DNA of 64,000 nt from NCBI RefSeq assembly GCF_947493595.1, contig NZ_CANLRL010000003.1, forward strand, positions 372,001 to 436,000, read 5' to 3'. Numbering within the stretch: position 1 is the stretch's first letter; each line of letters starts with the position of its first letter. The notes beneath the pieces are model-generated. The model did no database searches and was not told the DNA's origin. It saw only the letters and a program-made list of their open reading frames with translations. A program made the translations under genes and the position numbers. The stretch is from an uncultured Shimia sp. (GTDB lineage Bacteria; Pseudomonadota; Alphaproteobacteria; Rhodobacterales; Rhodobacteraceae). This document shows positions 11,702 through 21,785 of this stretch, piece after piece.

Positions 11702-13999
11702 ATGGATAAGTTTGGGAAAAGCCAGCCGGTCAAACGGGTTGAAGACACGCGGTTCTTGACCGGCAAAGGCCAATACGTCGACGATATTGCGCCTAAGAAT
11801 GCGCTGCATGCCTATTTTTTGCGCTCTCCGGTGGCGCATGGCGTTGTGACCGAGTTGGACGTAACGGATGCGCGTGAGGCGGATGGTGTGGCTTGTGTGC
11901 TGACGCAGGCGGATCTGTTGGCGGCGGGGCTTGAGGCGAACTTGCCAGGCACGCAGGTGGACAATCGCGACGGCAGCAAAGGCGCCAAACCTGAACGTCC
12001 GTTGCTGGCTGCAGAGCGGGTGCGCTATGTCGGTGAGCCGATTGCTGTGATTGTGGCAGAGAGCATGGATCAGGCGCGGGATGCGGCTGAGATGATCATG
12101 TTCGACTATGACGATCTAGACGCGCATTTGGCCTTGGCGCGCGGCGGCGAGCAACTGCATGGCGAAGCACCGGAGAACCTCGCATTTGATTGGGGGCTTG
12201 GCGATGAGGACGCGACCGATGCGGCTTTTGAGGCGGCAGCGCATGTGGTGAGCCTGGAGGTTGGTGACAACCGCGTGATTGTAAACGCGATGGAGCCGCG
12301 TGGCGCCTATGCCGAATGGGATGGCAGCCGGTTGCATGTCGCCAGCAATGGTCAGGGTGTCTGGGGCACCAAGGGGCAAGTCGCGCGTGTCTTGAAGATG
12401 AACGAAGATGATGTGCGTGTGACCAACCCGGACACCGGCGGCGGCTTTGGCATGAAGGCGATGATCTATCAGGAGCCGCTGATTGTGGCCTATGTCGCCA
12501 AGGCGCTCGGTAAGCCGGTGCGGTGGATTGCGGATCGCACCGAGTCGATGTTGTCAGACAATGCGGGGCGCGATTTGGTGTCGCTGGCGGAGCTGGCGTT
12601 TGATGAGAACCTCAAGGCGACGGCCTATCGCGTGAAGTCTGTTGCGAATATGGGGGCGTATAACTCGCAGTTTGCCCAGGCGATCCAGACGCAGCTGTTC
12701 AGCCGCGTATTGATGGGTGTCTATGATGTGCAGACCACCTGGCTGCAGGTTGACGGGGTTTACACAAACACCACACCGGTGGATGCCTATCGCGGCGCCG
12801 GGCGGCCGGAGGCGATTTATGTGCTGGAACGGCTGATGGATCGCGCGGCGCGGGAGCTGGGCGTGAGTGGCTATGAGCTGCGGCGGCGGAACTTTATCCC
12901 AACAGAGGCGTTTCCGTACAAGTCGGCGACCGATGAAACCTATGATGTTGGCGACTTTGACCGGGTGTTGAGCCGGGTGGAAGAGTTCGGCGATGTGCAA
13001 GGGTTTGCCGCGCGCAAAGCCGAGAGCGCGAAGGCTGGCAAGCTGCGCGGCGCTGGTTTGTGTTACTACATTGAGAGTATTTTGGGTGACCCTAGCGAAA
13101 GCACACGGGTGGAGTTCAATGAGGACGGAACTGTGTCGATCTATGTGGGCACGCAATCCAATGGGCAGGGTCACGAGACGGTTTATGCGCAGTTCCTGAG
13201 CGATCAAACTGGCATTCCCACCGAGATGATCGAAGTGGTGCAAGGTGACAGTGATCGCATTAAGCAAGGGGGGGGGACCGGTGGGTCGCGCTCCGTGACG
13301 GTGCAGAACACTGCCACTTTGGCGACCGTGGAAACGATGATTAAAGCCTTTACGCCATATATTGCAGAGAAGATGGGCGTGGATGCCGCGGATGTGAGCT
13401 TTGATGATGAGCAATTCCGGGCAGAAGGCTCTAACTTACATCCTACCTTCCTTGAAGCCGCGGAGATGGCGCGCGTGGATGGGCGGGTGGATTTGATGGT
13501 GCATGAGGAGCGCACCACTTTGCCAGCGCGCAGCTTCCCGAATGGGGCGCATCTGGCAGAGGTTGAAGTGGACCCGGAGACCGGACAGGTTTCGTTGGAG
13601 AAATACACTGTGGTGGATGATTTTGGTAATCTGATCAACCCGATGCTCGCGGAAGGGCAGGTGCATGGTGGTGTGGCGCAGGGCATTGGGCAGGCGTTGA
13701 TGGAACATGTGGTGTTTGATGATGATGGTCAGCTGTTGACAGCGACTTTCATGGATTACGCCATGCCACGGGCCGGCGATGTGCCGATGATTGGGTTCAC
13801 AACTGAGGCCGTGCCGTCCACGGCAAATATCATGGGCATGAAAGGTTGTGGCGAAGCGGGCACCGTAGGGGCCATGGCAGCGGCTTCTAATGCCGTTCAA
13901 GACGCGCTTTGGGAGGCGGGGGTGCGCCAAGCGGACATGCCGTTTACGCCGCACCGCGTGTGGCAGATGTTAAATGAGGCCAAACATACGGCTGGCTAG
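11702..13999 (+). CDS. Molybdenum hydroxylase large subunit (CoxL form II / xanthine dehydrogenase family)
   Basis: A 765-residue molybdopterin-cytosine-dinucleotide-binding subunit of the xanthine oxidase superfamily. These proteins hydroxylate carbon or aldehyde substrates together with FAD and 2Fe-2S subunits. AYRGAGR at 362-368 is the form II active-site loop, not the AYxCSFR loop of true aerobic CO dehydrogenase, so CO oxidation is unlikely. The catalytic glutamate E718 lies in GCGEAG. The N-terminal RVEDTRFLTGKGQYVDD segment is standard. AGGGGAG precedes the ATG. No medium or small subunit gene and no accessory gene lies next to it, so the partners must be encoded elsewhere. A nine-G run at 13268-13276 keeps the frame. 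Its last 26 bases overlap the DUF2235 gene. Confidence 0.85.
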   Translation: MDKFGKSQPVKRVEDTRFLTGKGQYVDDIAPKNALHAYFLRSPVAHGVVTELDVTDAREADGVACVLTQADLLAAGLEANLPGTQVDNRDGSKGAKPERPLLAAERVRYVGEPIAVIVAESMDQARDAAEMIMFDYDDLDAHLALARGGEQLHGEAPENLAFDWGLGDEDATDAAFEAAAHVVSLEVGDNRVIVNAMEPRGAYAEWDGSRLHVASNGQGVWGTKGQVARVLKMNEDDVRVTNPDTGGGFGMKAMIYQEPLIVAYVAKALGKPVRWIADRTESMLSDNAGRDLVSLAELAFDENLKATAYRVKSVANMGAYNSQFAQAIQTQLFSRVLMGVYDVQTTWLQVDGVYTNTTPVDAYRGAGRPEAIYVLERLMDRAARELGVSGYELRRRNFIPTEAFPYKSATDETYDVGDFDRVLSRVEEFGDVQGFAARKAESAKAGKLRGAGLCYYIESILGDPSESTRVEFNEDGTVSIYVGTQSNGQGHETVYAQFLSDQTGIPTEMIEVVQGDSDRIKQGGGTGGSRSVTVQNTATLATVETMIKAFTPYIAEKMGVDAADVSFDDEQFRAEGSNLHPTFLEAAEMARVDGRVDLMVHEERTTLPARSFPNGAHLAEVEVDPETGQVSLEKYTVVDDFGNLINPMLAEGQVHGGVAQGIGQALMEHVVFDDDGQLLTATFMDYAMPRAGDVPMIGFTTEAVPSTANIMGMKGCGEAGTVGAMAAASNAVQDALWEAGVRQADMPFTPHRVWQMLNEAKHTAG

Positions 14000-15044
14000 A
14001 CACATATCAGAGTGGCTGACTGGAAAATTCACCAGCAGCCATACCCCGGCGGTTCCGCGCCGGGGGGCGGTCACTCATGTGATTATTTTGGATGGCACCA
14101 TGTCTTCTCTGACACCGGGGAAGGAAACCAATGCCGGGCAGACCTATCTGTTGCTGCGCGAGATCGGCGCGGAGGTGCCGGTCTACTATGAGGCAGGTGT
14201 GCAATGGCGGTCCTGGCGACAGACGTTGGACGTGATGATGGGGCGCGGGATCAATCGGCAGATCCGGCGGGCCTATGGCTATTTGGCAAGCCGATACCGG
14301 CCCGGAGACAAGATCATGCTGATGGGCTATTCGCGCGGTGCCTTTGCCGTGCGCTCGCTGGCAGGTGTGATTGACCGCGTGGGATTGTTGCGCGCGGAAT
14401 GTGCGACGGAACGTAACATTCGCACGGCTTACCGGCACTATGAGCTAACGCCGGACACTGCTGCTGCAAAAGAGTTTGCGGCGGCACATTGTTATGAGCA
14501 CACCGAGATTGAGATGATTGGTGTCTGGGACACAGTGAAAGCGCTGGGCGCACGGGTGCCGGTGTTATGGCGGATCACCGAACGGCGTCATGCGTTCCAC
14601 AACCAGCAGCTTTCCCCAGTGGTGCGGCATGGGTTTCACGCATTGGCCTTAGATGAAACACGTCAGGTGTTTGAACCGGAGCTGTGGCGCTGTCCCGATG
14701 ATTGGGACGGACGTGTGGAGCAGGTCTGGTTCCGCGGCGCGCACAGCGACGTGGGTGGACAACTGGTGGGGTTTGACGCGGCGCGGCCGTTGGCCAATGT
14801 CTCGCTTGTTTGGATGTTGGAACGATTGGCGATGTGTGGCGTTGACTTGCCAGAAGGGTGGCGAGACCGATTTGAGACCAATCCGGATGCACCGATGGTG
14901 GGAACCTGGCGTGCGCTGGGCAAATACTTCCTGTTTCGCGCACCGCGGGTTGTCTGTGCAGATCGTTCAGAAAGCATTCACCCAACTGCGCTTCCGTATG
15001 TGAGTGCTGGGGACATAAAAGGGCAGGTTTTGCAGCAGACCTGA
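13974..15044 (+). CDS. DUF2235 alpha/beta-hydrolase (Tle1-like catalytic domain)
   Basis: A 356-residue protein with the DUF2235 domain, an alpha/beta-hydrolase fold shared with Tle1-type phospholipase effectors. VIILDGTMSSL starts the domain, the nucleophile S120 sits in GYSRGAFA, an aspartate lies in MIGVWDTVKALG, and GAHSDVGG (H257, D259) is the later catalytic region. There is no signal peptide, no VgrG/PAAR neighbour and no immunity gene, so a housekeeping lipase or esterase is likelier than a secreted effector. The ATG at 13974 overlaps the end of the molybdenum hydroxylase gene by 26 bases in another frame, suggesting translational coupling, though a later non-ATG start is possible. 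It converges on the nitroreductase with six bases between stops. Confidence 0.75.
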   Translation: MRPNIRLARHISEWLTGKFTSSHTPAVPRRGAVTHVIILDGTMSSLTPGKETNAGQTYLLLREIGAEVPVYYEAGVQWRSWRQTLDVMMGRGINRQIRRAYGYLASRYRPGDKIMLMGYSRGAFAVRSLAGVIDRVGLLRAECATERNIRTAYRHYELTPDTAAAKEFAAAHCYEHTEIEMIGVWDTVKALGARVPVLWRITERRHAFHNQQLSPVVRHGFHALALDETRQVFEPELWRCPDDWDGRVEQVWFRGAHSDVGGQLVGFDAARPLANVSLVWMLERLAMCGVDLPEGWRDRFETNPDAPMVGTWRALGKYFLFRAPRVVCADRSESIHPTALPYVSAGDIKGQVLQQT

Positions 15045-15050
15045 GGTAGT

Positions 15051-15722
15051 TTAGTCGCGCCAGTCGACAAATTCGTCTAACTCCGCGCGGTCGGTGCGGA
15101 AGGTGTTGATCGCGGCGGTGTCATCTGGATAGCCAAAGGAGATGGCCGCGAGGACCTTGCGGTCTTCTGGAATGCCAAAGTGGGTGCGGATGGTGTCTGA
15201 GAAAAGCGACAGGGCGGCTTGTGGGACTGTGCCAATGCCTTGCGCCTTGGCTGAAAGGCAGAAGGCGGTGATAAAACCGCCGCAATCGAGCACGCCGTAG
15301 GGGCCAAGCTCTTTGGGACAGCTGATCACCGCGACATGTGGTGCGCCAAAGAGTGTGTAATTTTCGCGCATTTGGCGGGCGCGGCCTTCTCGGTCTCCAC
15401 GCCCGATGCCCACAGCTTCATAGAGCTGAAAGCCGCAAGTGCGACGGCGTTCAAGATGAGCGCCAGTGTAGGTGGTCGGAAAAGGGTAGTCGGGCGCGGG
15501 GCTGCCTTTGTCAAAGGCTGAGGCCATGGCTTCGCGGAACGTCTCGGTCTCCGCGCTGGAAGTGATAATCACTTTCCACGGTTGCGCGTTACACCACGAC
15601 GGCGCGCGGCCTGCGTCGCGCAGAATCTGCGCAATTACGTCGCGTGGGACAGTAGCTGATGTGAAGGCCCGGCACGAATGGCGGGCGTGCAGCAGCTCTT
15701 GCAATGCAGCGTGGTGAGACAT
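15051..15722 (-). CDS. Nitroreductase family protein
   Basis: A 223-residue FMN-dependent oxidoreductase. RHSCRAFTSATVP (14-26) carries the FMN-phosphate arginine motif, and RAPSWCNAQPWK (39-50) is the conserved core. The GTVPQAALSLF and LAAISFGYPD segments fit the C-terminal FMN site. These dimeric cytosolic enzymes reduce nitro compounds, quinones or flavins using NAD(P)H. The ATG at 15722 is chosen over a longer frame that would overlap the upstream zinc-ribbon gene. It is 17 bases after that gene on the same strand and so is the likely last member of the TelA/SPFH operon, though a functional link is not shown. Confidence 0.85.
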   Translation of the reverse strand: MSHHAALQELLHARHSCRAFTSATVPRDVIAQILRDAGRAPSWCNAQPWKVIITSSAETETFREAMASAFDKGSPAPDYPFPTTYTGAHLERRRTCGFQLYEAVGIGRGDREGRARQMRENYTLFGAPHVAVISCPKELGPYGVLDCGGFITAFCLSAKAQGIGTVPQAALSLFSDTIRTHFGIPEDRKVLAAISFGYPDDTAAINTFRTDRAELDEFVDWRD

Positions 15723-15739
15723 CGCGGATTCCCCGGCGC

Positions 15740-16846
15740 TTATTGGTTCTGGGCGATGATATATCCAATCACACCCGCTGCAATAGCTGTAAGGAGCACG
15801 GCAAAGGCGATCTTCCACTTTGAGTAGGGGCGTTCGCCTTGGACGCGGCCGGTTTGTCCATTCACAACAAAGCGATAGGACTTGCCGCGATACTTATAGG
15901 CCGCCATCCAGACCGGCAGCAGGATGTGCTTGAACGTCACGTCGCTGACGGCGGTGGAGATGTTGTGGATGCGCTGGCGGTCGCCGCCAATGTCAAAGGC
16001 CACGTCGCGGCGGATCACACGGTCCATGTGGTCGCGGGCCTCGTCGTAGCCTTCTTCTAGTTCTATGGAGTATCCCTCAGCCTGAAAACCGGCGAGGAAC
16101 TCGGGGGTGTATGGTTCAAGGGCAGAGAGGTCCCACGGCTGCAAATTGTCGGTGTATTTTTTGGGGAGGGCTTTGGAGCCGAGCACAAGGATATCGTCAA
16201 ACCACCGGGCCACGCGGCCCGACGCGGGAGACCAGCGGACTTTTTGCACCTGCCGTTGTTCTGGCTTGCCGTCCACCATGACGGTTTCGGTGACGTAGTA
16301 GATGGTGCCGCGTTCGCCCATGTAGGAGGATTTGGTGTCCGCATCATAGGTCCAATAGGGGACATAGATGCCATCCATTTTGCGGCCCTTCTTGGCGTAT
16401 TCCTGCAGACCGTTGGGGGCAAACCAGAGCTTGCCCAGCCAGTCGTTCATGGACTGATGTGCGACTTTCTCTGCGATTTGGAAAGGCAGGACAGCGCGCG
16501 GCTTGATCAGGCGGTGCGTGCCCGTGTCGACCACAACAGGGGTGGCGCAGAAGGGGCATTCGGTGGCGTGGGTGTCGCCTTCAAACACCACATGCGCGGC
16601 GCAATTGGGGCAGGAGGTGGTGCGGGCCTCGACCATTTCGGCGGCTGGCAGCTGTTCCGCAAGCGCGGCTTTGAAATCCAACTCAGCTATCGCAGCCTGA
16701 CGATCGCCTTGTTCTGTGGCTTCTTCGTGCCCGCAGTGATCGCAGATCAGTTTGCCTTCGTTGGGAGCAAAGCGGTAGTCGGCGCCGCATTGGGCGCAGG
16801 GGAAACGGGTTGTCTCTTTGGGTGCAGGAGGCGGCGTGGCTGACAT
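15740..16846 (-). CDS. Zinc-ribbon membrane-anchored protein (TFIIB-type zinc ribbon)
   Basis: A 368-residue protein with two zinc ribbons near the N-terminus: CAQC (17-20) with CDHC (35-38), and CPNC (79-82) with CPFC (97-100). A long conserved middle follows, with aromatic-rich IYVPYWTYDA and LPVWMAAYKYRGK segments. One C-terminal membrane helix is at about 343-364, so most of the protein faces the cytosol. Databases often mislabel such proteins as a PriA-like helicase, but no helicase motif is visible. The start overlaps the stop of the upstream membrane-protein gene by one base (TGATG), implying coupling. It probably works in the same envelope complex as the SPFH protein; that is inference. 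Confidence 0.78.
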   Translation of the reverse strand: MSATPPPAPKETTRFPCAQCGADYRFAPNEGKLICDHCGHEEATEQGDRQAAIAELDFKAALAEQLPAAEMVEARTTSCPNCAAHVVFEGDTHATECPFCATPVVVDTGTHRLIKPRAVLPFQIAEKVAHQSMNDWLGKLWFAPNGLQEYAKKGRKMDGIYVPYWTYDADTKSSYMGERGTIYYVTETVMVDGKPEQRQVQKVRWSPASGRVARWFDDILVLGSKALPKKYTDNLQPWDLSALEPYTPEFLAGFQAEGYSIELEEGYDEARDHMDRVIRRDVAFDIGGDRQRIHNISTAVSDVTFKHILLPVWMAAYKYRGKSYRFVVNGQTGRVQGERPYSKWKIAFAVLLTAIAAGVIGYIIAQNQ

Positions 16847-17382
16847 CAGAATGAGATTCCCTTTGGTTCCCGACCTGGACCGCCAATGCACTGGATGGTT
16901 ACGGCGGATAAAGCACCCGCAACGGCGAAAAATGGTAAAAGTTGTAAAACCAAAATCCAGCCAGAACTGGAAAGAAGCCCTTCGCCAAAACCAGTTGCCT
17001 CTCCCAAGAAAGGCTCGCTTTTAAAGAGTGCAGAAGTGGAAATTAGCCACCCTGGAGCTTGGCTGGTCACAACCGCCGTCAACGGGAGGAGACCTCCAAG
17101 CATTGCTCCCCAGCTTGCAGCTCTTTTCTTATGCATTTGTCGCTTCATCAAGCGGTACAAAGGCCAGGACAAGAACAGCCATGCCGCTAATACTCCGACA
17201 ACTACGCCTGACATCATCCACCCTAGGAAGGCTGGGAAAATATCATGCGCCGGTTGCCATAGCGTCCAAGCAGCGACCCCAATGAAACTGACGAAGATGA
17301 GTGGCCCAATAACTCCAGTCAATGTCACCGCCAAAACCCATTGGTTGAACGTGTAGGCACGCTGTGGCTGACGTGGTTGCAT
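16846..17382 (-). CDS. Hypothetical four-helix membrane protein (178 aa)
   Basis: A 178-residue protein with four predicted membrane segments (about 15-40, 50-77, 92-107 and 142-166) separated by short loops, one basic (RLMKRQMHKKRA), and a polar C-terminus. No catalytic motif is recognised. The same open frame runs a further 117 codons upstream, but there it is a low-complexity Pro/Arg shadow of the SPFH gene, so the ATG at 17382, one base after the SPFH stop, is the start. Its end overlaps the zinc-ribbon gene start by one base. This tight packing shows it belongs to the TelA/SPFH operon. Base composition here is slightly more AT-rich than its neighbours. Confidence 0.65.
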   Translation of the reverse strand: MQPRQPQRAYTFNQWVLAVTLTGVIGPLIFVSFIGVAAWTLWQPAHDIFPAFLGWMMSGVVVGVLAAWLFLSWPLYRLMKRQMHKKRAASWGAMLGGLLPLTAVVTSQAPGWLISTSALFKSEPFLGEATGFGEGLLSSSGWILVLQLLPFFAVAGALSAVTIQCIGGPGREPKGISF

Positions 17383-17383
17383 G

Positions 17384-18523
17384 TCATGCACCAGGTGGCG
17401 GGGGCGGGAGTATGGTGAAGAGCTGGGCCAGTTCGGCCACGTCTTCGGCGTGTTTCCAGCCGTCTTGCCCAGCGGTCCAGACGTGGGTTTCGCGGGTGAT
17501 TTCGCCAGCGGCGGCCATGCGGCCAAGTGCAGCTTTGGAGAACGGGCCTTTGGTTTGGCCGTTTTCGGCGATGTGCCAGACATGTTCGACCGGTGGAGGG
17601 GGAGGCGGCGCAGCGGCAGCTTGAGGGGCAGGGGCGGCTTGTGGCGCTTGCGCGGCAGGTTGCGCGCCCCATGGGCCGGTTTGCGCCATCTGTTGGGCCA
17701 TTGCCATGCCCATACCCATCCCCATGCCGGCACCCATGCCGGAGTTTGGCGATTGTGCGGCGGCGGTCATGGCTTCGGCGGCGGAGAACTGTGTGTATTT
17801 GCCTAGATCGCCAACGATGCCCATCGAGGTGCGCTTGTCCATGGCGGCCTCAACCGCAGGTGGCAGGGAGATGTTTTCGATGTAGAGCTCCGGGATCGCG
17901 AGGCCGTATTCGGCAATGGTGCCGGAGATTTCGGCGGCGACCAGCTTGCCCAGATCGGCGGTGTTGGCGGCCATGTCCAGAACAGGGATGCCGGAGCCTG
18001 CGACCACGCGGGAGAACTCCTGCACGATGATGTTGCGGATCTGGAATGAGATCTCATCCATGGTGAATTCGCCGTCCGTCCCAACGATCTCCGTCAGGAA
18101 GCGAGCAGGGTCCACAACGCGGATTGCGTAGGTGCCATAAGCGCGCAGACGCACGGGGCCGAATTCTGGATCGCGCACCATGATCGGGTTTTTTGTGCCC
18201 CACTTCAGGTCTGCAAAGCGCGTGGTGTTGACGTAGTAGATTTCCGATTTGAACGGGCTTTTGAAGCCGTGGTCCCAGTGCTGCAGCGTGGTCATCACCG
18301 GCATATTGTTGGTTTCCAACATGTAGAGACCGGGGGTGAAGACGTCGGCTAGCTGGCCCTCGTGCACAAACACCGCCGCTTGACCTTCGCGGACGGTCAG
18401 TTTGGCGCCGTATTTGATCTCGTGGCCTTCGCGCTCAAAGCGGAACACCAGCGTGTCGCGGGTGTCATCAACCCAATGGATGACGTCGATAAATTCGCCA
18501 GTGAGGAAATCAAAAATACCCAT
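17384..18523 (-). CDS. SPFH-domain protein with C-terminal GYF_2 (DUF4339) domain
   Basis: A 379-residue protein. Residues about 40-235 form an SPFH/band-7-type domain of the virion-core-protein subgroup (KLTVREGQAAVFVHEGQLAD and GLYMLET near the start, LRAYGTYAIRV in the middle). A Gly-Met repeat (GMGMGMGMAMAQ, about 263-278) and an Ala/Pro-rich linker (285-312) follow. A GYF_2/DUF4339 domain is at about 315-370 (VWHIAENGQTKGPFSK, then GWKHAEDV). SPFH proteins build membrane-associated oligomeric scaffolds, and GYF_2 domains bind partners. There is no N-terminal membrane helix, so recruitment to the membrane probably depends on partners. It lies 36 bases after the DUF2927 gene and one base before the four-helix membrane gene. 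Confidence 0.82.
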   Translation of the reverse strand: MGIFDFLTGEFIDVIHWVDDTRDTLVFRFEREGHEIKYGAKLTVREGQAAVFVHEGQLADVFTPGLYMLETNNMPVMTTLQHWDHGFKSPFKSEIYYVNTTRFADLKWGTKNPIMVRDPEFGPVRLRAYGTYAIRVVDPARFLTEIVGTDGEFTMDEISFQIRNIIVQEFSRVVAGSGIPVLDMAANTADLGKLVAAEISGTIAEYGLAIPELYIENISLPPAVEAAMDKRTSMGIVGDLGKYTQFSAAEAMTAAAQSPNSGMGAGMGMGMGMAMAQQMAQTGPWGAQPAAQAPQAAPAPQAAAAPPPPPPVEHVWHIAENGQTKGPFSKAALGRMAAAGEITRETHVWTAGQDGWKHAEDVAELAQLFTILPPPPPGA

Positions 18524-18559
18524 GAAGTGGTCCTTTCAAAAGGCTGGTCGCGGCGGCGC

Positions 18560-19480
18560 TCAGAAGTTCTGTGCGGTTTGCTCGCGGGCCAGAATGTAAA
18601 CAATGGGGCGGGCCTCGTCCACGCTCATACCGATGCCAAGCCGGTCATCATAGAGCATGGAGAGTAGTTTTTCGTCATGCGTGGTGAGCAGCGCAAACTC
18701 CTCGTCATCGTTGAAGATCGACGGGCGAGCTTCGGGGCTGTCATTGGCCAAACCGAGGCCCTGAGCGATCTCTTCGTGGAAGCAAGATTTGCGTAGCAGA
18801 TCAGGGTGTTCTGCACGCACAAAAGCGACGGCAGAGGTATATGCGTTTGGATTACTGTCTGACGCCAAAGCCACCACGAAACAGTAAATATTGCGCGGCG
18901 GGTTGGCGAAAAGCGCGCGGGTTTTGGGCGAGGCGTTGGGAAGCAGGCTGTCGAGGCGAGCGTTCACTGTGTCGCGGTCGTCTGCTCCCATAACCAGTAC
19001 GTGGAAGTTGGGTTTGTTTGTGGTTTGGCGGATCGCGTGGCCTGTGCTGTTGGCCAAACGCGGCACATAGGCGGCAACCGTGGCGCGGTCTGTGGCGCGC
19101 TGGCTTTCCGGCACGGAGGGGCCGAACTCGACGTTCACTTTGATAGGTCCGCTCCAGCGCCGCAGTTGACCTGCTTGGCCGGAGGAGCGCTCCAACCCGC
19201 CACCGCTGTTGTATTCATCATAAAAAGCGATGCGCTCAAAGTTGCGCGCCAGGATATCCGGTGTAAACGGCGTGTCAGGTCCACCGCCATCGGTGCGCAA
19301 CAGGCCACGTGTCAGAAGATCAGCTTGGACTTTGCTATAATAGGACCGCAAAGCCGCGCTAGCTTCGGATGGAGGTGCGGGCACAGGGGAGACAACCGGC
19401 GGCGAGGTGGTGCCACTGGTGTCCATGCAGGCCGCCAATGTGGTCAGCAGCCCGAGCCCTATGCCCGCAAATCGCTTCAC
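18560..19480 (-). CDS. DUF2927 lipoprotein
   Basis: A 306-residue predicted lipoprotein: a short hydrophobic leader ends in the lipobox TLAAC (C18), with a Ser/Thr/Pro-rich linker to about 38. The DUF2927 domain fills the rest, including WSGPIKVNVEFG, NIYCFVVALAS, CFHEEIAQGLGLANDSPE (232-249) and a later FNDDEEFALLT. HEEIAQ resembles a zincin HExxH with Gln in place of the second His, so a degenerate or unusual metallopeptidase is possible but unproven. The start is GTG, overlapping the telA stop as GTGA, a coupled pair. It is the only exported component of the operon apart from the membrane proteins, and probably faces the periplasm. Confidence 0.8.
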   Translation of the reverse strand: MKRFAGIGLGLLTTLAACMDTSGTTSPPVVSPVPAPPSEASAALRSYYSKVQADLLTRGLLRTDGGGPDTPFTPDILARNFERIAFYDEYNSGGGLERSSGQAGQLRRWSGPIKVNVEFGPSVPESQRATDRATVAAYVPRLANSTGHAIRQTTNKPNFHVLVMGADDRDTVNARLDSLLPNASPKTRALFANPPRNIYCFVVALASDSNPNAYTSAVAFVRAEHPDLLRKSCFHEEIAQGLGLANDSPEARPSIFNDDEEFALLTTHDEKLLSMLYDDRLGIGMSVDEARPIVYILAREQTAQNF

Positions 19481-20673
19481 GTGGCGGGGACTGCGGTGGC
19501 GGTAGTGTCGCCCAGGCCGTCCTTGCGCGCTTTGGCAGAAGCCAGCGTGTCACGCAATTCGGCTTCCATTTTCTTCATGTCATCTTCCGCCGCAGCACGT
19601 TTGGCTTTGCCTTCGTCTGCAATTTGCAGCGACTCGTTGATGGTGGCGATCAGCTCTGCGTTGGCGGTTTTCACGGCCTCGATGTCAAACACGCCGCGTT
19701 CCATCTCTGTGCGCACCGCGCGGTTGGTTTCGCGCAGGTTCTTGGCGTTGGCGGTCAGCAGCTCGTTGGTCAGGTCGTTGGCGTCACGCACGGCCGCGGC
19801 GGCTTCTGCGGAGCGTTGGATGGTGACGGCCTGCGCCAGCTGGGTTTCCCAGAGCGGTACGGTGTTGACCAAAGTGGAGTTGATCTTGGTGACCAGAGAT
19901 TTGTCGTTTTCCTGCACAAGGCGGATAGACGGCAGCGACTGCATGGTGACCTGGCGGGTCAGTTTCAGGTCATGCACGCGGCGTTCCAGATCGTCTCGGG
20001 CAGCGCGCAGGTCGCGCAGTTCCTGGGCCTTCATCACCTGAGCGTTTTCGTCTGCGGCAGAAACTTCAGCTTCTTTGGCGGGGATGTCGTTGGCATCCAG
20101 ATCGGCAATCTTGGCCTCGCCTGCGGCGATGTAGAGCGCCAACTCGTCATAGAATGCGAGGGTTTTTTCGTAGAGCACGTCCAGCGATTTGATGTCTTTG
20201 AGCAGTTTGTGTTCGTGACTAAGCAGATCGTCGGTGACGCGATCAATCTGATCCTGCACTTCTTCAAAGCGGGCGGTGAACTTGGCAAATGGCGCAGCTT
20301 TGCCAAACAGTTTTTCCCAGAAACTGCGTTCGCGGCGCACGTCCAACTCAGACACAGAGAAACCGCGAATGGTGGTGACGATATCGCGCAGACTGTCGCC
20401 TGCCGGGCCAACGTCTTTGTTGCGCACATCTTGCAGCATGGCTTGGGAAATGGTTTGCAGCTCGGCCTGAGCGCCGGAGCCAAATGACACGATCGAGTTG
20501 GTGTTGCTCATGTCCAGCTCAGCCATGCGCTTGGTGATTTCCGCAGAAACCGGTGCGTCGGCCTCGGCCAATGGCACAATGGCGCTGGCCTCAATTGGTT
20601 CCGGCAGGGCAACGGTGGCTTCGGTGATTTCCGCCAAAGCGGCTTCGGCTTTTTGTTTTACGATCTCAGACAT
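19477..20673 (-). CDS. Toxic anion resistance protein, TelA family
   Basis: A 398-residue soluble, mostly helical protein of the TelA/KlaA family, named for tellurite resistance but found widely in chromosomes, where the native role seems to be envelope stress. The GDSLRDIVTTIRGFSVSELD segment followed by SFWEKLFGKAAPFAKF is the family core. LDVLYEKTLAFYDELALYI and a long Gln/Asn/Ala-rich coiled coil follow to the C-terminus. No transmembrane segment is present. The ATG has GGAAGGGTGG upstream. It lies 35 bases after the xpaC-like gene and overlaps DUF2927 by four bases. TelA and XpaC families commonly occur as neighbours, which supports both calls. Confidence 0.88.
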   Translation of the reverse strand: MSEIVKQKAEAALAEITEATVALPEPIEASAIVPLAEADAPVSAEITKRMAELDMSNTNSIVSFGSGAQAELQTISQAMLQDVRNKDVGPAGDSLRDIVTTIRGFSVSELDVRRERSFWEKLFGKAAPFAKFTARFEEVQDQIDRVTDDLLSHEHKLLKDIKSLDVLYEKTLAFYDELALYIAAGEAKIADLDANDIPAKEAEVSAADENAQVMKAQELRDLRAARDDLERRVHDLKLTRQVTMQSLPSIRLVQENDKSLVTKINSTLVNTVPLWETQLAQAVTIQRSAEAAAAVRDANDLTNELLTANAKNLRETNRAVRTEMERGVFDIEAVKTANAELIATINESLQIADEGKAKRAAAEDDMKKMEAELRDTLASAKARKDGLGDTTATAVPAT

Positions 20674-20708
20674 TTAAATCCACCCTTCCCGGTAGGTCAC
20701 ATGTGTTA

Positions 20709-21587
20709 TCAGCTGTCGCGGCGCAGGCCTTCGCGCTCCAAGCGCTCGCGCAGTACGTCAATTTCGATGGTCAGATCGCCGCGATCCTCGAGCAGGAATT
20801 TCTGCGTACGGGCGGCGAAGTTTTCTTCCAGATCATCCAGCAGCGCGAGGTAGTCGGTGCGGGCCTGGGCATCCTGCGTGCGGCTGTAGATGTCGGTAAA
20901 TTTCACCGTCGCGTCTTTCGCTCCCAGCAAATAGACGCTGAGGTAGCGGCGGGCTGCGGTGAGGTCGCGCGGATCTTCTTCCACCGTGCGGAACAGGTCG
21001 CGGGCGGTGGATTGGAAGGCAGAGACACGACGTTCGACGCTGCGATCCCCAGCGCGGGCAACGGCATCGCTCATGGCGCGCAGATGCTCTTCGGCTTCTT
21101 CGACGGCGCGGGCGACCCGGTCGGTTTGATGGCGGTTGGTGCCTTCCATGCCTTTGTCAGACATCGGATCGAGGCCAAAGGCAAAGCTGTGCAACATGCC
21201 GCCAACAACAGCAAAAATGCCCGCCTCGATGGGGCCATGACCTGCGAAACCTGCGACTGCGAGGCCGAGACCAGTTAAAAGAGAGCCGAGCAGTTTGCGC
21301 GGCAGCGCAGGGCGGCGGGCGACCTTGCGAGCGTTATAAGCTTCTTGGGCAAACATGCCTTCTCGCGTCATCCAAGCCGCTAGAAGCAGGACGCCAAGCG
21401 CAGTCAGATACTGCACCATGACGATGGGCTCGGACGTGAAGGCTTTCCAGATCAGGGGCAGCGGCGCGATGAACAGCAGGTTGACGCGCCCACCTGCGCG
21501 GCTGCGCTTGGCGTTGCGAAAACCGTCGTCACTGCTGGCACCTGGGGCGCCGCCAGGGCTGTATTTGCCACCAAATTTCTGAGCCAT
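20709..21587 (-). CDS. XpaC-like (5-bromo-4-chloroindolyl phosphate hydrolysis) membrane protein
   Basis: A 292-residue protein. The first 140 residues contain a basic N-terminus and about four membrane segments (roughly 35-50, 55-73, 99-115 and 119-136). The remainder is a cytosolic helical domain of the XpaC family (TDRVARAVEEAEEHLRAMSD and TDIYSRTQDAQARTDY). The family name comes from an indicator-dye phenotype in Bacillus and does not establish phosphatase activity; no phosphatase motif is seen. The ATG at 21587 (a GTG lies one codon earlier) overlaps the stop of the 27-residue peptide gene as TGATG, with GGAGG inside that gene. It is co-transcribed with telA. Confidence 0.78.
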   Translation of the reverse strand: MAQKFGGKYSPGGAPGASSDDGFRNAKRSRAGGRVNLLFIAPLPLIWKAFTSEPIVMVQYLTALGVLLLAAWMTREGMFAQEAYNARKVARRPALPRKLLGSLLTGLGLAVAGFAGHGPIEAGIFAVVGGMLHSFAFGLDPMSDKGMEGTNRHQTDRVARAVEEAEEHLRAMSDAVARAGDRSVERRVSAFQSTARDLFRTVEEDPRDLTAARRYLSVYLLGAKDATVKFTDIYSRTQDAQARTDYLALLDDLEENFAARTQKFLLEDRGDLTIEIDVLRERLEREGLRRDS

Positions 21588-21670
21588 CACGCGCCTCCTG
21601 TGAAAGAGACGTAGAAGATCAACAGAACCAACAGGCCAAAGGCCAGTTTCTGTAAACCGGTTGATGACAT
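21587..21670 (-). CDS. 27-residue single-helix membrane peptide at the head of the TelA operon
   Basis: An ATG at 21670, preceded by GGTGGAG, opens a 27-codon frame: MSSTGLQKLAFG, then LLVLLIFYVSFTGGA, ending TGA at 21589-21587. The product is one uncut hydrophobic helix with a short polar N-terminus, a typical small membrane peptide. Its stop overlaps the xpaC-like ATG (TGATG), and the GGAGG for xpaC lies within its last codons, so translation of the two would be coupled. It is too short for standard gene callers. It could be a real regulatory or assembly peptide or merely a translational leader; the good ribosome site and clean hydrophobic run favour a real peptide. Confidence 0.5.
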   Translation of the reverse strand: MSSTGLQKLAFGLLVLLIFYVSFTGGA

Positions 21671-21785
21671 ACCCACTCCACCCTGTGCTAAGTTATGGAG
21701 AAATCTAAGAACTCTGCCGCAATATGGCTAGGGGGAAGTTTTGGTAAAGCGGCGCATTGCCGAGGAGGTTGCACCGCTTGCCGAA

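Follow-up and report, generated by a model that had tools for sequence, protein, structure and literature searches.

What is the task of an operon in which genes of the TelA and XpaC families are joined to genes for an SPFH protein and a zinc-ribbon membrane protein? Such an operon lies on the minus strand of the window, a stretch of 64,000 nucleotides of contig NZ_CANLRL010000003.1 from an uncultured Shimia sp. (Rhodobacteraceae). A sequence-only reading had proposed that eight genes there, from a microprotein to a nitroreductase, encode one membrane-associated complex. All eight minus-strand open reading frames (ORFs) that it listed are present, and the family names it gave hold for six of the proteins, which match seven Pfam families above cut-off; for the microprotein and a four-helix protein, neither Pfam nor NCBIfam has a family that matches above cut-off. 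XpaC and TelA are adjacent on the same strand, both above the Pfam cut-off, as an XpaC–TelA pair. The locus is a real operon that is near-universal in the family, and its core is conserved in other classes and in Campylobacterota. Two modules that occur apart elsewhere are joined in this locus: module A consists of the microprotein, XpaC and TelA, with a DUF2927 lipoprotein added in the family and its close kin, and module B consists of an SPFH-GYF protein and a double zinc-ribbon protein (ZnR). We give an even chance to the reading that the locus encodes a PspA-free, TelA/XpaC-based membrane-protection (envelope-stress) complex of these two modules.

Conservation and linkage of the core genes

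An order sample of 148 genomes, all labelled as belonging to the same family as the source, has the SPFH family above cut-off in 144 genomes and XpaC in 145. Sixty neighbourhoods, one per genus, were taken from the 70 genera with a match, and their genes were located by tblastn. SPFH is present in all 60, TelA in 58, XpaC in 57, DUF2927 in 57 and ZnR in 56; of the four loci that lack ZnR, two (L045 and L071) end at the edge of the region or contig. The genes present stand on the same strand in the order XpaC, TelA, DUF2927, SPFH, ZnR across the genus representatives, a gene order far beyond chance, and the flanks hold an rluB-like gene in 47 loci and tadA in 46. This supports conserved linkage of XpaC, TelA, DUF2927, SPFH-GYF and ZnR. 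Among the matches listed, the nearest named loci by SPFH (80-81% identity) include Aliiroseovarius, a Rhodobacteraceae metagenome-assembled genome and Roseovarius.

The linkage is not limited to the family. Among 240 genomes sampled from the class, uncorrected for kinship, a strong SPFH match (E below 1e-70) was found in 11, TelA above cut-off in 20 and both in 10. Eight class genomes with strong SPFH lie outside the family; five of these have XpaC-TelA-SPFH-ZnR, two have SPFH-ZnR and one has SPFH alone, and no DUF2927 was seen in the stretches fetched for these eight loci. A scan of named genomes confirmed at least 582 relatives, and the best 80 loci were kept. ZnR is present in 64 of them, TelA in 44, XpaC in 40, DUF2927 in 14 and the nitroreductase in 6, which are lower bounds because some loci are short. 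All 44 TelA genes lie on the strand of SPFH. Fourteen of the 44 TelA-bearing loci carry DUF2927 and one more (L179) is titled Rhodobacteraceae, which leaves 29 as outside the family, with titles such as Sedimenticola, Granulosicoccus, Thiothrix, Sulfurovum and Geminicoccaceae. The genes present follow the order XpaC, TelA, SPFH, ZnR in 29 of 29, and none of these loci, 19 of which extend more than 4 kb 5' of XpaC, shows the rluB/tadA flank of the family type. Synteny within the family is therefore an unlikely cause of the linkage. Scattered homologues without shared neighbourhoods were not found; linkage runs across classes, even if each half is also seen on its own. In these samples, DUF2927 is limited to the family and its close kin.

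The core proteins and their genes

In the window the genes are closely packed (Table 1). Four coupled junctions had been counted from the sequence, of which three are true overlaps and the fourth is a 1-base gap: the microprotein/XpaC and four-helix/ZnR junctions are TGATG overlaps of 1 base, the TelA/DUF2927 junction is GTGA with an overlap of 4 bases, and the remaining gaps in the operon are 1, 17, 35 and 36 bases long.

Table 1. Features of the operon and its upstream element, in coordinates of the window
Feature	Position	Strand	Basis
Promoter-like bipartite element 5' of the microprotein start	21701..21737	-	TTCCCCCTAG box and CTTAGATTT (-10-like) box
Microprotein, 27 aa, predicted transmembrane helix 9-27, partner of XpaC	21587..21670	-	Profile, directly 5' of XpaC
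XpaC (PF10112) membrane protein	20709..21587	-	E 1.2e-27; hydrophobic segment 55-73
TelA (PF05816), without hydrophobic segment	19477..20673	-	E 2.9e-106
DUF2927 (PF11150) lipoprotein, predicted matrixin-like fold	18560..19480	-	E 6.3e-61; model
SPFH (PF13421 Band_7_1) with GYF_2 (PF14237), without hydrophobic segment	17384..18523	-	E 7.5e-101; E 5.9e-22
Four-helix membrane protein, apparent lineage-specific insert	16846..17382	-	0/60 loci; G+C dip
ZnR, double zinc ribbon (PF11781), long beta-strand domain, C-terminal transmembrane segment 346-364	15740..16846	-	E 4.8e-10
Nitroreductase-family protein (PF00881)	15051..15722	-	E 3.6e-28

Hydropathy gives a membrane segment to ZnR, XpaC and the microprotein and no hydrophobic segment to SPFH and TelA. 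Behind its GYF domain, SPFH has a proline-rich C-terminal tail, which is kept in 10 of 11 aligned sequences. Self-association of SPFH is possible, because GYF domains bind proline-rich peptides and this tail is rich in proline. Searched against the sequences of solved structures, the SPFH profile hit the AglX GYF domain (7z3c), with a weak further match to stomatin. Eight cysteines of ZnR are invariant across 47 sequences, and the ZnR model (predicted local distance difference test, pLDDT, 90.3; predicted TM-score, pTM, 0.83) shows very long strands. Among the sequences of solved structures, the ZnR profile found small zinc ribbons only, weakly, and the DUF2927, TelA and XpaC profiles gave weak matches only, probably by chance.

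The 27-residue peptide, first read from the sequence alone, is backed by conservation. It is a conserved small membrane protein tied to XpaC, with a membrane segment predicted from hydropathy. A profile was made from nine seed sequences and iterated on matches beside XpaC. With it, the microprotein is located immediately 5' of XpaC in 56 of the 57 genus representatives that have XpaC and, when every locus with XpaC is counted, in 71 of 102; among 25,918 small ORFs of 149 loci, the profile matched 67 beside XpaC (E <=1e-3) and one elsewhere (L180), which overlaps the XpaC frame. The seeds and the iterated members are bound to match, so the independent test rests on 12 loci outside the training, 7 of which have the microprotein. 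In six genomes of one genus XpaC alone has gone from the operon, and the microprotein is found at XpaC in five (E <=6e-6) and not in the sixth. It stands at one of three second XpaC copies (L201, E 1.3e-3), is present in a genome without SPFH (L204, E 4e-9), and was not found in two genomes in which XpaC was relocated together with TelA (L199 and L200). The entropies at its codon positions (1.33, 0.85 and 1.51) and a ratio of nonsynonymous to synonymous substitution rates (dN/dS) of about 0.34, a rough value from 53 of 57 sequences after four without a clean core were dropped, fit purifying selection. Outside the family the profile search mostly did not find it, including at five class loci (L098-L102); weak look-alikes occur in three Granulosicoccus loci (E 1.1-1.7). 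Some copies are about 67 residues long with an additional N-terminal hydrophobic segment. Away from the main XpaC, longer ORFs resembling the microprotein, with a hydrophobic stretch at either end, were seen at L168 2616-2819, L057 4563-4763, L048 4455-4652 and L201 2872-3228, those of L168 and L201 directly adjoining a second XpaC copy. A search of the open-licence literature for 'small protein' with XpaC returned unrelated titles only.

The bipartite element upstream of the microprotein may act as a promoter, to judge from its two boxes and their spacing. The CTTAGATTT box starts exactly 28 bases from the first base of the TTCCCCCTAG box. Within 260 bases upstream of the microprotein, TTCCCCCT is present in 23 of 57 sequences (56 loci and the window), and 15 of those 23 have a YYTAVVTT box (V = A, C or G) with the identical 28-base start-to-start spacing. 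On both strands of the 60 loci (1,173,098 bases), TTCCCCCT occurs 52 times, upstream sites included. Exact TTCCCCCTAGC occurs 3 times in the source genome. The TTCCCCCTAG box was also considered as the mark of a wider regulon and this was dropped, since, by eye, no second box accompanies either of the other two exact genomic copies, one of which is in a coding frame.

The periplasmic lipoprotein arm that had been read into the operon is upheld by the lipobox cysteine (C18) of DUF2927, found in 55 of 58 sequences, the other three being gapped. The model made from these 58 sequences (mean pLDDT 91.3) predicts a matrixin (metzincin) fold for residues of about 80-280, a likeness shared with matrix metalloproteinases (MMPs), karilysin and snapalysin. 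In VIA-align, matrixins came first, with Z up to 11.2 over 150 residues and a root mean square deviation of 2.9-3.0; 208 of 999 chains reached Z >=8, and identity to matrixins is 9-14% in the rows listed. Foldseek matches were mostly MMPs, plus snapalysin and karilysin, with prob 0.97-0.99 for the top 12. The zinc motif of metzincins is HExxHxxGLxH. Its register in DUF2927, read by eye, is E236 E237 xx Q240 xx G243 L x N246 D247, and all 58 sequences have H235, E236, E237, Q240, N246 and D247. DUF2927 thus differs from matrixins in being a bacterial lipoprotein, in having E236, Q240 and N246 for the zinc histidines and in having F256 at the position of the Met-turn methionine. The simplest reading of the model is that DUF2927 is a lipid-anchored pseudoprotease. 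It might instead be an active metallopeptidase with unusual metal ligands, the operon then being a system of regulated proteolysis; the matrixin-like model and the invariant glutamate in the catalytic register agree with this, and a metal site of another type is possible because that glutamate, H235, E236, Q240, N246 and D247 never vary. We consider such a peptidase very improbable, as histidine occupies the three zinc positions in none of the 58 sequences, in a register taken from the motif and not from a residue-level superposition. Tandem DUF2927 pairs between TelA and SPFH were seen at L108 4485-6392, L118 4961-6978 and L182 5214-6982. No mention of DUF2927 was found in the open-licence literature.

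A proposed membrane-protection complex and its rivals

Both halves of the operon have relatives that have been studied in other bacteria, and the literature on these separate halves backs the theme of envelope stress already drawn from the sequence. According to the cited passages of PMC8581546, YdjI of B. subtilis, a soluble SPFH protein, depends on YdjG and YdjH to form membrane foci; PspA needs YdjI to reach the membrane, and YdjI makes the membrane more fluid. YdjG is a zinc-ribbon transmembrane protein in the passages cited from PMC11237479 and PMC9239133. The Band_7_1 profile matches in B. subtilis, and this match is assumed to be YdjI. The operon resembles pspA-ydjGHI in that a soluble SPFH protein adjoins a double-zinc-ribbon transmembrane protein in a setting of membrane stress, as far as these passages go (PMC8581546, PMC11237479, PMC9239133). 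It differs in having TelA and XpaC in place of PspA and a TPM protein, in an SPFH protein that ends in GYF_2 where YdjI ends in a zinc finger, and in the additional DUF2927 and microprotein. The kinship of ZnR to YdjG rests on architecture, since the ZnR model has no match among solved folds. The other half resembles xpaC-yaaN and Listeria lmo1966-1967, in which XpaC is followed by TelA in one operon linked to envelope stress (PMC3498285, PMC12791056, cited passages). These passages do not describe a joining to SPFH-ZnR or mention a microprotein ahead of XpaC, for which no search was made there. On bacteriocin stress lmo1966-1967 rises modestly, by log2 0.6 (PMC12791056, in part); xpaC is raised sevenfold in a liaR mutant of E. 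faecium (PMC10269926, in part), and a Paracoccus TelA is expressed in a biofilm metaproteome (PMC11962581, in part). In the open-licence literature no description of the combined operon was found, and TelA, XpaC, SPFH and zinc ribbon never occur three together, nor 'toxic anion resistance' with SPFH.

The proposed complex, the placing of TelA in the role of PspA and the stress signal are inferred. XpaC with the microprotein and the tail-anchored ZnR would form an integral base in the inner membrane. Soluble SPFH would assemble on this ZnR/XpaC base like YdjI on YdjG/YdjH, possibly with its GYF domain bound to proline-rich tails. The division into a soluble SPFH protein and membrane-bound ZnR, XpaC and microprotein matches the dependence of soluble YdjI on YdjG/YdjH in the cited part of PMC8581546. 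Helical TelA, in the place of PspA, would be recruited to damaged or over-fluid membrane, and DUF2927, as a non-catalytic lipoprotein of protease fold in the periplasm, may sense or bind a ligand on the envelope side. A single complex is favoured because the operon physically joins two halves which Bacillus keeps as distinct operons within one regulon. A more far-reaching form of this proposal is offered tentatively and seems to us rather doubtful: a widespread PspA-free counterpart of the phage-shock system, in which an SPFH-GYF ring would load TelA as the membrane-remodelling effector on ZnR/XpaC, the microprotein of 25-35 residues would be a standing subunit of XpaC and the pseudo-matrixin of Rhodobacteraceae would couple this complex to the outer envelope.

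Several observations weigh against the proposed complex. An hhalign comparison of TelA with PspA gave a probability of 1.8 and no sign of a sequence relation; homology between the two is therefore unsupported, and the placing of TelA in the role of PspA is an analogy only. PspA is encoded in the source genome itself, on contig 8 (the operon is on contig 3), and is above cut-off in 47 of the 148 order-sample genomes, with a patchy distribution, so that the operon is not supported as a plain replacement of PspA. No TPM-domain (YdjH) match was obtained by Pfam in the eight operon proteins. The full ZnR model has no solved-fold match (best Z 3.6; Foldseek best E 0.049, prob 0.13), and Foldseek is weak for DUF2927 as well (best E 4e-3, none at 0.001, query TM-scores 0.24-0.37). 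The halves are also found apart: 10 of the 20 TelA-positive class genomes lack strong SPFH, SPFH and TelA are separate in 2 of the 10 class genomes with both (G243 and G378), and 23 of the best 80 named loci have SPFH and ZnR but neither TelA nor XpaC in the available sequence. These 23 include Bacteroidota, Planctomycetota and a Micromonospora, and three of them (L130, L176 and L181) end within 1 kb upstream of SPFH. One genome has XpaC-TelA-DUF2927 (L199) and SPFH-ZnR (L086) on different contigs, and the genome of L204 has XpaC-TelA-DUF2927 with no SPFH match. As for PspA near the operon, Pfam finds none in its eight proteins, and none was found in the best 80 named SPFH loci with a profile of four alphaproteobacterial PspA, which is maybe too narrow. 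The PspA gene of the source genome (L104 9617-10321) adjoins a short ORF of 94 aa.

The occurrence of the halves apart in some genomes speaks for the possibility that XpaC-TelA and SPFH-ZnR are independent stress modules, merely co-transcribed and without physical contact, and so does B. subtilis, where xpaC-yaaN and pspA-ydjGHI are separate operons of one regulon, that of SigW (PMC3498285, cited passage). This is possible, although we hold it somewhat unlikely: the modules are tightly linked on the same strand in a fixed order over several classes, and an SPFH protein like YdjI would need a membrane recruiter, membrane proteins being present in both modules.

The name of TelA suggests another task, the detoxification of tellurite or toxic anions, in which the other genes would aid export or reduction and the nitroreductase would be the reductase. 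PF05816 and phrog_5890 carry this name, and a Listeria mutant of lmo1967 (TelA) is twofold more sensitive to tellurite as cited in PMC12791056 (in part); in the same passage its sensitivity to nisin rises fourfold, which is the greater effect. The nitroreductase is near in just 14 of 60 loci; Pfam finds a transporter family in none of the eight proteins, and near-universal presence in one family is unlike an acquired resistance island. Detoxification is thus unlikely. An anti-phage or conflict system on an SPFH scaffold is less probable by far, and we regard it as hardly credible. A Vibrio plasmid does carry an SPFH gene of this family close to a gene with a TIR domain, but PADLOC gave no match for the six of eight proteins that were scanned, and the operon is close to core in its family. 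On that Vibrio coralliilyticus plasmid (NZ_CP048695.1, L192 2093-8154), SPFH and a hypothetical gene are divergent to the TIR-domain gene and two hypothetical genes.

Variable neighbours and the meaning of the operon

The complex proposed here is smaller than the eight-gene system that had been supposed. The four-helix gene was found by tblastn in none of the 60 genus-representative loci, only in the source genome among 100 genomes of 100 genera, and in one of the four same-genus species examined (98% identity); G+C falls to 0.53 at this gene compared with 0.57-0.66 in most surrounding windows. It looks like a recent lineage-specific insert outside the conserved system. The SPFH-ZnR junction is insertion-tolerant, and the four-helix gene of the window sits at this same site. 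Inserts there vary by genus, the commonest being a cytochrome-b561-like gene (named by eye) in 10 of 60 loci, namely L033, L044, L050, L056, L061, L066, L068, L072, L078 and L082. The nitroreductase, taken earlier for a redox enzyme at the end of the complex, adjoins the operon in 4 of 4 same-genus species examined and is a frequent, not constant, downstream neighbour when the genus representatives are counted. An eight-part complex with these two proteins as parts is therefore rejected on conservation (0/60 and 14/60 loci). On the opposite strand at 11702-15044 of the window, two genes overlap, one for an xdh-like dehydrogenase and one DUF2235-like, both named by eye; this pair adjoins the operon in 4 of 4 same-genus species examined.

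Beyond the sequence-only reading, the analysis adds the division into two modules, the counterpart in Bacillus YdjI/YdjG, the predicted pseudo-matrixin fold of DUF2927 and the link between microprotein and XpaC. The most novel pieces are a small-protein family without a model and a new, predicted fold assignment for DUF2927, which thereby gains a putative pseudoprotease reading. Because no family model exists for it, the microprotein is a candidate subunit that routine annotation may miss. Little is understood of what the widespread TelA and XpaC do. If the more far-reaching proposal is true, both proteins, so far named by phenotype, would gain a shared mechanism. Their fixed operon with an SPFH-zinc-ribbon pair ties them to a membrane-stress complex studied in Bacillus and opens their function to tests in genetically tractable Rhodobacteraceae.

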